Both the position numbers and the translations under genes were made by a program. Under the pieces are notes generated by a model. The model had not been told where the DNA came from, did not search any database, and saw only the letters and a list, made by a program, of their open reading frames with translations. This document shows positions 7,215 through 25,210 of a DNA stretch of 64,000 nucleotides, piece after piece. The DNA comes from Blastococcus colisei. Its GTDB lineage: Bacteria; Actinomycetota; Actinomycetes; Mycobacteriales; Geodermatophilaceae. The DNA lies in the NCBI RefSeq assembly GCF_006717095.1, contig NZ_VFQE01000001.1, forward strand, positions 372,001-436,000. The letters are read 5' to 3'. The stretch's first letter is position 1, and every line of letters starts with the position of its first letter.

Positions 7215-7733
7215 TCAGGGGCGGTCGAACGCGTCCATCGTGGTCTTCACGACGACGCCGTACGCCAGGTGCGGGACCAGGTCGCTGATCCAGTCGGTGG
7301 CCGACCAGGTGCGTGGGTCCGTGACCCCCATGACCGTCATCGGCCCGTTCGCGGCGACCAGCACGCCGGCCGTGGTGAGCAGCGTCCCGACCAGCGGCTG
7401 CGAGCGGAAGCCCGCCGTACGCACCAGTCCGACCACCACCCCGACGCCGACGCCTGCGACGAGCCCCATGAGAGGGCCGAGGCCCTGCTTCCGGTTCTTC
7501 CGCGTCTCGTCGTCCCCCGGGATCGACACGTGTGCGGTGTCGGCCAGCTTCTCCACCGTCTTCTCCGGGGTCGAGCTGCTGCCGCGCCCCCGCACGGCCA
7601 TGTCGAGGTAGGTGACCGCGTTGAGCGCGGTGCTGCCGGCGGCGCCGGCCGCAGCGCCGCGCAGCATCCAGCCGGCCGTGCTGATGCCGCGCTTGCCCTT
7701 GCCGAACGTCCCGATCGGGGTCTTCTTCGCCAT
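7215..7733 (-). CDS. Unknown membrane protein, Gly/Ala-rich helices
   Basis: 172 residues, not recognised. A basic N-terminus (MAKKTPIGTFGKGKRG) is followed by a Gly/Ala-rich helix, a polar middle (about 70-95), a long Gly/Val helix (LMGLVAGVGVGVVVGLV) and a final hydrophobic segment near the C-terminus. Similar small proteins occur across actinobacteria. The ATG at 7733 is chosen since the upstream open frame belongs to a decayed peptidase gene. Confidence 0.65.
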   Translation of the reverse strand: MAKKTPIGTFGKGKRGISTAGWMLRGAAAGAAGSTALNAVTYLDMAVRGRGSSSTPEKTVEKLADTAHVSIPGDDETRKNRKQGLGPLMGLVAGVGVGVVVGLVRTAGFRSQPLVGTLLTTAGVLVAANGPMTVMGVTDPRTWSATDWISDLVPHLAYGVVVKTTMDAFDRP

Positions 7734-24164: not shown

Positions 24165-24296
24165 ATGAGCAGCGTGACGACCCGGTGGCAGCAGCGTCGA
24201 CAGGCGGCGCGTACCCGGCGGGCACTGAACCAGGCGCTCGCTCGCACGAGCAGCCCGGCGATGCGCGACGAGCTCCTCACCATCGCCAACCGCTGA
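24165..24296 (+). CDS. Small basic protein, conserved actinobacterial type
   Basis: 43 residues: a strongly basic first half (RWQQRRQAARTRRAL) and a conserved-looking end SSPAMRDELLTIANR. I have seen this end in other small actinobacterial proteins but know no function. An in-frame ATG at 24147 would add six residues; 24165 is preferred because an AGAGG lies ahead. A local AT-rich stretch upstream (24050-24120) suggests its own promoter. Confidence 0.55.
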   Translation: MSSVTTRWQQRRQAARTRRALNQALARTSSPAMRDELLTIANR

Positions 24297-24438: not shown

Positions 24439-24924
24439 TCAGTGCACGGCGTGGACGACGGCGTGCCCCTTGCCGCGGCTCATCAGCGCCCGGTTGATCG
24501 GCAGGGTGACCACGAAGGCCACGGCGAGCGCCCCCGCCAGCGACACCCAGAACACGGCACCGGCGATGCCCGCCTCCATCGCCCCGGGGACCGTCAGCAC
24601 CACCGCGTTGTCGACGATCTCCATGACGGCGATCGACACGGTGTCCGCAGCCAAGGCGACCCGTAGGGCGGCGCGGAACGGCAGGCCGGCCCGGAGGACG
24701 CCCCGCATCGTCAGGGCGTAGCCGAAGACGAAGGCCAGTGTCACCGCCAGGGCCACCGTGGCGGCATCGTGAAGCCCCAGCGACGTGCCGATGACCATGC
24801 CGAGCACCTCGCCGATCGCGCAGCCGGTGAGGCAGTGCAGGGTCGCCTGCCGCGCGGCCGCCCACGACACCCGTTGCGGACTGCTGTCATGCTGTAGCCG
24901 TGAGTGCACGGAATCGCGGTGCAT
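24439..24924 (-). CDS. DUF4396 membrane protein
   Basis: 161 residues with about four membrane helices. The family hallmark HCLTGCAIGEVLGMVIG is present near residue 30, with Cys and His inside the membrane segment, and there are several Met residues. Members often lie by copper genes (family knowledge, not visible here beyond the operator). The ATG at 24924 is chosen since AAGGAGG precedes it; an ATG at 24945 lacks a site. A CsoR-like palindrome sits about 20 bases upstream. Confidence 0.82.
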   Translation of the reverse strand: MHRDSVHSRLQHDSSPQRVSWAAARQATLHCLTGCAIGEVLGMVIGTSLGLHDAATVALAVTLAFVFGYALTMRGVLRAGLPFRAALRVALAADTVSIAVMEIVDNAVVLTVPGAMEAGIAGAVFWVSLAGALAVAFVVTLPINRALMSRGKGHAVVHAVH

Positions 24925-24945
24925 GGAGGCCTCCTTGCGCTGCAT

Positions 24946-24962
24946 GTACCCCTAGGGGGTAT
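24946..24962. promoter_or_regulatory. CsoR-family operator-like palindrome
   Basis: GTACCCCTAGGGGGTAT is a near-perfect palindrome of the form known for CsoR/RcnR-type metal repressors (A/GTACCCC-n-GGGGTA). It lies just upstream of the DUF4396 start, and a second C run (ACCCCC) follows at 24967. Confidence 0.6.
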
Positions 24963-25210
24963 ATGACCCCCGGTGTACTCCGCTGGGCGCCGCCGCGCAA
25001 GGCCCCCGCCGCCCACGACGCCGAGCGGGCCCGAGGGTGCTCGGCGTCACCTCTGCAAGCCCATTCACCCGACCGGGTGACGACGCTCAGGAACCGGTCG
25101 GTTCCTGCCGTTCCAGCACTCGTGCGCATCCACGGGACCTCCCTGCCTCGGGTCGCGTCCGTCCGGCGGGCCGCCCGGCCATCGGGGTCCCCTCCGCCCG
25201 GGCGCCGGCT

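Follow-up and report, generated by a model that had tools for sequence, protein, structure and literature searches.

In mycobacteria, as the RicR/CsoR regulators illustrate, one repressor controls unlinked copper genes, the targets of RicR (mymT, lpqS, mmcO, Rv2963) being other proteins than DUF4396. For Streptomyces lividans, the available part of PMC3902906 reports that CsoR binds the copZA1 (GGGTACCCCCTAGGGGTATAC) and copZA2 (TTTATACCCCCTAGGGGTAAG) operators in vitro, that Cu(I) abolishes its binding at the csoR operator and that the type-2 consensus reads ATATACCCCTNAGGGGTATAT, i.e., a TAC/GTA dyad spanning 9 bp with C/G tracts. Further CsoR targets have been predicted in S. coelicolor (SCO1044, SCO3280, SCO4137, SCO6710 and SCO7265; available part of PMC6414726). 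The Firmicutes CsoR meta-regulon, as presented in the accessible text of PMC4938975, has a core of csoR and copA and includes a membrane DUF (DUF2318) among its minor targets, while DUF4396 is not named there. Regarding DUF4396 itself (PF14342, pfam14342, IPR025509), a literature search from which subscription journals were mostly absent returned PMC7760498 only, the available text of which mentions the family a single time, bordering a metal-resistance cluster, and assigns it no function. Much is already established about CsoR, its operator and its regulon. To us, the steady membership of DUF4396 is new, in a comparison that left aside the families of the five SCO targets, and it may have been predicted earlier in subscription journals, e.g., in the S. 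lividans copper-stress study cited by PMC6414726.

The window, i.e., the whole stretch of 64,000 nucleotides analysed here, carries a DUF4396 gene preceded by a palindrome of this kind (Table 1). The sequence GTACCCCTAGGGGGTAT lies at positions 24946-24962, within which TACCCCTAGGGGGTA (24947-24961) forms the dyad TACCCC-N3-GGGGTA with 0 mismatches, no other match in the window being perfect; on the minus strand, ATATACCCCCTAGGGGTAC has 12/12 dyad bases of the CsoR type-2 operator. A half-site spacer of 4 did not describe the site, the correct spacing being 3. The S. lividans regulon has operators of the same class, both copZA operators showing the 15-bp core of the window (TACCCCCTAGGGGTA) in the available text of PMC3902906, and a Cu(I) sensor of the family to which the CsoR of the window's genome belongs; unlike here, the three operators named in that text serve csoR and two copZA operons. 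On the minus strand, TTGCGC is followed after 17 bp by TACACC, then by ATATACCCCCTAGGGGTACAT with the dyad, AAGGAGG and the ATG of DUF4396. If these predicted promoter elements are correct, the operator starts 10 bp downstream of the -10 element and would lie over the expected transcription start. The open reading frame list begins the gene at the ATG at 24945, but the ATG at 24922-24924 is the likely start codon because AAGGAGG precedes it, which leaves 22 bp between operator and gene. The original prediction of a CsoR-like operator directly upstream of a DUF4396 gene is confirmed and stands on stronger evidence than it claimed.

At face value, such a palindrome might have arisen by chance in G+C-rich DNA, and sites with two mismatches are indeed expected in a window of 64 kb (1.47 expected by chance, two found, which is unsurprising). 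Against this, the exact dyad has one occurrence in the 5.16-Mb genome, a search of 41 genomes gave 57 places for it and 0 for the reversed control pattern, and it is conserved before DUF4396 in distant families. A chance origin is already contradicted by these comparative counts, and we give it practically no credence. The other CCCCTAGGG-like places in the genome (L036 and L038) turned out to be imperfect dyads. At the second of these (L038:1501-1726, C2), a small frame (MENYEAPQIVEIGSLHELTLQDKDFSGNDG...), which we take to resemble a lasso-peptide precursor, follows the near-CsoR-like palindrome GCACCCCTAGGGGTTA at a distance of about 100 bp.

Table 1. Features of the DUF4396 locus, in window coordinates.
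Feature	Position	Strand	Basis
CsoR type-2 operator, dyad TACCCC-CTA-GGGGTA	24947..24961	.	Motif scan; core as in S. lividans copZA1/copZA2 operators
Predicted -35 element TTGCGC	24995..25000	-	By eye; TTGCG-17-TA layout, by eye, also in L047, L048 and L064
Predicted -10 element TACACC, 17 bp from -35	24972..24977	-	By eye
Ribosome-binding sequence AAGGAGG	24930..24936	-	Sequence
DUF4396 gene, 161 aa, four predicted membrane helices	24439..24924	-	PF14342 profile; AlphaFold2
HCLTGC motif, helix 1, residues 30-35	24820..24837	-	Alignment; His30, Cys31 and Cys35 in 57/57
DTVSIAVMEIVDN motif, helix 3, residues 94-106	24607..24645	-	D94, T95, S97, M101, E102, D105 and N106 in 57/57
C-terminal tail GHAVVHAVH	24442..24468	-	Alignment

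The exact motif is unique in its own genome, where the original prediction suggested looking for other copies. Across actinobacteria, the site is kept upstream of HCLTGC-type DUF4396 genes. Among 41 relatives, at least 11 of the 12 dyad bases were found upstream of 17/17 HCLTGC-type genes scanned (15 perfect; the window's own gene included, as well as L060 and L069, which are gene pieces), and the site was found upstream of 0/5 genes of other DUF4396 types. This sample lists 31 DUF4396 matches, of which 23 were scanned, i.e., the 17, the five of other types and L067, a broken copy that has a perfect site and was kept outside the 17 since its HCLTGC part is not visible; the remainder corresponds to seven loci with domain pieces (several being second pieces of a gene) and one match without a locus. 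When named actinobacterial loci were considered (the best 80 of 586 by similarity), 54/80 had a perfect site and 67/80 at least 11 dyad bases. The 13/80 loci of this best 80 of 586 that score at most 10 between -250 and +30 include seven from Nonomuraea, while in three of the 13 a perfect site occurs farther upstream, at -284, -774 and -902. Finally, an even sample of the class was drawn (196 genomes, at least 90% complete), 49 of which match the PF14342 profile; 53 matches were listed and 50 read (three fragments left out), of which 1/50 has no HCxxGC motif. The HCLTGC-like type is carried by 47/196 of these genomes, and its 47 HCL(T/L/A)GC genes (own copy included) comprise 33 with a perfect site, 40 with at least 11 dyad bases, one at 10 and six at 9 or less, while the site was found for 0/2 HCGAGC-type genes. 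The reversed motif peaked at 10, in 2/80 loci (best 80 of 586) and 1/49 of the class sample. The three samples, with 16, 74 and 44 comparable upstream stretches, hardly overlap: the first has one stretch in common with the second and one with the third (the window's own gene belongs to the first and third samples), and the second and third have none in common. Altogether, the operator is kept upstream of orthologues, as a CsoR regulon would have it (17/17; 67/80 of the best 80 of 586; 40/47).

The position of the site relative to the promoter also varies. By eye, the group to which the window belongs (L047, L048, L052, L064) has it about 10 bp after the -10 element, and in L045, L179, L181 and L136 it falls within the -35/-10 spacer. 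Varying distances and two promoter layouts therefore fit a selected repressor site, rather than common descent alone. As the site stands between DUF4396 and a divergent GGDEF gene to its right, it might serve the latter instead, all the more as L079 also has a homologue of this GGDEF neighbour beside a site; but the site is only 22 bp from the DUF4396 start codon and accompanies DUF4396 in 67/80 loci (best 80 of 586) where the neighbours are mostly different, which makes this reading extremely unlikely and DUF4396 the preferred target. At L079 (G008, 1080-1501), the perfect site and a DUF4396-like N-terminus (MDPEHGHAQRQHDSTAKPVSWAVARQAT) stand beside the GGDEF homologue, the rest of DUF4396 being gone there and the profile search giving no PF14342 match in G008; L079 is the remnant of a DUF4396 gene with its operator. 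Viral contigs and phage records yielded one relative each, and L210 has no CsoR-like site.

We then turn to what the exact dyad marks across the 41 genomes. Out of the 57 perfect sites, 16 lie at most 300 bp upstream of a match to DUF4396, a membrane protein family devoid of assigned function, and 13 at most 300 bp upstream of a CsoR match. For the 28 sites located elsewhere, the genes of 10 loci were scanned with Pfam, yielding seven P-type ATPases (six with an HMA domain), one DUF305, one MFS and one rhodanese/metallo-lactamase gene; L099, one of these 10 loci, is also 643 bp before a CsoR match, and in L097 an HMA chaperone gene stands first, ahead of the P-type ATPase. Among the places scanned, the exact dyad marks mostly, yet not exclusively, copper genes. 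Tandem operators were observed at L070 (G026, 1501-1552), where a His-rich P-type ATPase is preceded by two perfect sites lying 37 bp apart. At L085 (G012, 1501-2938), a perfect site precedes the metallo-lactamase/rhodanese gene, which is of the persulfide dioxygenase kind and points to recognition of the same motif by a CstR-type regulator. Since the dyad precedes this gene as well as the MFS gene of L078 (G006), the motif alone cannot separate CsoR from CstR.

This separation can be sought in the regulator. A profile search of PF02583 (CsoR family) gave one match in the genome (C1:1717126-1717368), 1.3 Mb from the window, and none in the window itself, in agreement with the claim that no CsoR gene is nearby. 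A genome lacking any CsoR homologue would have refuted the original prediction; there is, instead, exactly one such gene, of Cys-His-Cys type and beside copZ and copA. Its product has the copper-type residues (...EKYC...EEHMSHC...), and the gene adjoins an HMA chaperone gene, a 334-codon frame without Pfam match and a P-type ATPase gene scoring above the NCBIfam cut-off for copper-translocating ATPases. Both a His between two Cys and a copper gene context, which distinguish CsoR (copper) from CstR (persulfide), are therefore present. Among NCBIfam models, that of RicR comes closest to this CsoR, with a score below the cut-off of the model (145.7 vs. 175 bits). With one CsoR taken per genome, Cys-His-Cys was found in 26/26 CsoR sequences read (26 of 30 loci read).

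The promoter of csoR holds TATACCCCCCTAGGGTTTA (L001:1871-1887), with 10/12 on the dyad against 12/12 for DUF4396, which therefore has the better dyad of the two. An imperfect csoR operator (AACCCTAGGGGGGTA, 10/12), weaker than the DUF4396 operator, is seen in many genomes of the genus and may set a graded copper response. As for the 334-codon frame beside copZ/copA (L209:4893-5897, C1), its relatives occur near DUF4396 in 7/80 loci (best 80 of 586); in L156 and L203, they do so without CsoR, CopZ or CopA.

If a CstR-like persulfide sensor owned the operator, DUF4396 would respond to sulfane sulfur instead of copper. The available part of PMC7533328 describes a CsoR-family sulfane-sulfur sensor of S. 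coelicolor with a similar site (ATACC-N6-GGTAT), and the perfect site of L085 points the same way; the site of the window, however, is TAC-N9-GTA, like the copper operators of S. lividans in the accessible text of PMC3902906. Moreover, the only PF02583 gene of the window's genome is of Cys-His-Cys type and adjoins copZ and copA, and the recognisable neighbours of DUF4396, where present, are mostly copper genes. An HCLTGC-type DUF4396 (with a broken copy in G007) occurs together with just one PF02583 match in 11/41 genomes (own included; G004 and G007 are less than 90% complete), and the CsoR of 10 of these 11 was read, with Cys-His-Cys in 10/10. As a second family member is absent from the genome and copper residues are found in 10/10 CsoR read, a persulfide sensor is a weak rival that we judge improbable, and copper-sensing CsoR is retained as the regulator.

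The protein matches PF14342 over the whole domain (E 2.9e-42; 144.8 bits vs. a cut-off of 27; profile positions 1-141 of 141). In the AlphaFold2 model (mean pLDDT 76.7, pTM 0.66), helices span residues 21-48, 53-78, 83-111 and 123-149. Arg and Lys are found at the N-terminus, around the 79-82 loop and at the C-terminus, and none in the 49-52 and 112-122 loops; both ends are therefore predicted to be cytosolic. The Cys, His and Met that had been noticed in the helices fall into two patterns, HCLTGC..E...M in helix 1 and DT-S---ME--DN in helix 3, where E39 is kept in 57/57 members and M43 in 55/57, in addition to the residues listed in Table 1. The last 12 residues contain three or four His in 14/14 aligned members. 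Helix numbering would place H30-C31-C35 level with D94-S97, and E39-M43, at a different depth, level with M101-E102-D105. Foldseek found no structural match to the model at E 0.001, NCBIfam had no model matching the protein at E 1e-5, and the best VIA match (Z 7.6) was a dynamin-like protein, which is uninformative for a helical bundle. Guessing the function from the fold failed, helical bundles having middling scores against unrelated proteins.

Most DUF4396 copies have no copper gene nearby, while a minority, on plasmids and chromosomes, adjoin copper genes. Within at most 6 kb (best 80 of 586 loci), CsoR was found in five cases (weakly in L161), CopZ in seven, CopA in five and any of them in eight. 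A DUF305 gene is located near 11/80 of these loci (best 80 of 586), all confirmed by Pfam (11/11). Like DUF4396, the DUF305 and Csp-type (DUF326) proteins are small and copper-linked, and they share neighbourhoods with some DUF4396 copies; unlike it, they belong to other Pfam families and are not known to be four-helix membrane proteins. The CopM protein of Synechocystis, for its part, is presumably a DUF305 protein. It is described as a copper-binding protein in the available part of PMC4335983. In G000, a DUF326 (Csp-type) match adjoins a DUF305 match at two places (C1:2623745-2624507 and C1:3698628-3700203). MFS-type transporter clusters were observed near DUF4396 in 9/80 loci (best 80 of 586), i.e., L154 (for which Pfam was checked), L159, L163, L170, L180, L186, L198, L199 and L202.

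Plasmids were surveyed through 10 of 33 records, two of which come without annotation. On pKRAD01 of K. radiotolerans, the order is DUF305, csoR, copZ, copA, a hypothetical frame on the opposite strand and DUF4396; two perfect tandem sites precede csoR, and DUF4396 has no site in the preceding 400 bp, so that it would rely on the csoR promoter. The accessible text of a copper proteomics study of this organism (PMC2928746) contains none of CsoR, DUF305, P-type ATPase or Krad_46. Two Streptomyces plasmids display a perfect site, DUF4396 and then a Csp-type copper-binding gene (DUF326 in both), while a third has DUF4396 within a CopC/DUF305 island, with the site at -184. By annotation, no copper gene appears in the contexts of L213, L216 and L220, though L213 and L216 still have a perfect site; L215 has only HMA and DUF302 genes, some 5-6 kb from DUF4396, and L218 has neither a site nor a CsoR/CopZ/CopA match. 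Outside actinobacteria, Ensifer canadensis shows the order HMA chaperone (copZ), DUF4396, HMA P-type ATPase (41% identical to CopA of the window's genome) and MerR-family gene. No CsoR-type site was found at this locus, where each of the first three genes is preceded by a box resembling what we take to be the CueR consensus (at 7568, 7916 and 8542, with 14, 13 and 16 of 16 positions). Judging from the one genome read, two unrelated copper regulators seem to hold the same DUF4396 gene.

Taken as a whole, we strongly favour the view that DUF4396 is a four-helix copper protein of the inner membrane, repressed by CsoR and induced by Cu(I). That the gene is under CsoR control, presumably as a repressed gene, is highly probable, and a role in copper handling, which would involve copper binding, is likely. 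Since a copper-sensing switch precedes DUF4396 across many actinobacteria, the protein very probably belongs to actinobacterial copper defence. The original prediction of a metal-responsive, possibly copper-handling protein under a distant repressor is supported by the distant single CsoR, the conservation of the site and some copper neighbourhoods, copper binding being proposed from the residues. Briefly, when copper is scarce, CsoR would occupy the dyad over the expected transcription start and block the transcription of DUF4396. By analogy with S. lividans CsoR in vitro, Cu(I) bound at the Cys-His-Cys site would free CsoR from the operator, and DUF4396 would then be made together with the unlinked csoR-copZ-copA genes. 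Copper would most likely be bound as Cu(I) by His-Cys-x3-Cys, Glu and Met of helix 1, Asp, Ser, Met, Glu, Asp and Asn of helix 3 and the His-bearing tail, and the protein might carry Cu(I) outwards or keep it at the membrane, forming a second line next to CopA. Transport, with an outward direction presumed, and sequestration or service to CopA appear to us about evenly balanced.

Under the same CsoR control, the protein could also act outside detoxification, by importing copper, by taking part in its delivery to cuproenzymes or as a redox protein. Its invariant Cys pair, acids and Met would suit uptake, delivery or thiol chemistry equally well, and the fold search is uninformative as to function; however, the genes released by CsoR under copper excess in S. 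lividans are chaperone and efflux genes (available part of PMC3902906), and some genomes have DUF4396 in linkage with copA, copZ, Csp-type and DUF305 genes. We regard such a role as unlikely, though less so than the other alternatives, and keep to a role in copper defence. A bolder proposal, which we advance tentatively and with the balance somewhat against it, is that HCLTGC-type DUF4396 proteins are small Cu(I) transporters forming a new family, with four helices and no ATPase of their own, which would export Cu(I) or pass it to CopA, be widespread in actinobacteria under CsoR and also have been recruited under CueR in an alphaproteobacterium. DUF4396 would add to the copper-defence components listed for soil, stone and radiation-resistant actinobacteria, and its function is directly testable, since a regulator, an inducer and candidate ligand residues can be named. 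Besides, the plus strand of the window has a 43-codon open frame (MSSVTTRWQQRRQAARTRRALNQAL...; 24165-24296), flanked by the PTS enzyme I gene and DUF4396, that may represent a small gene.
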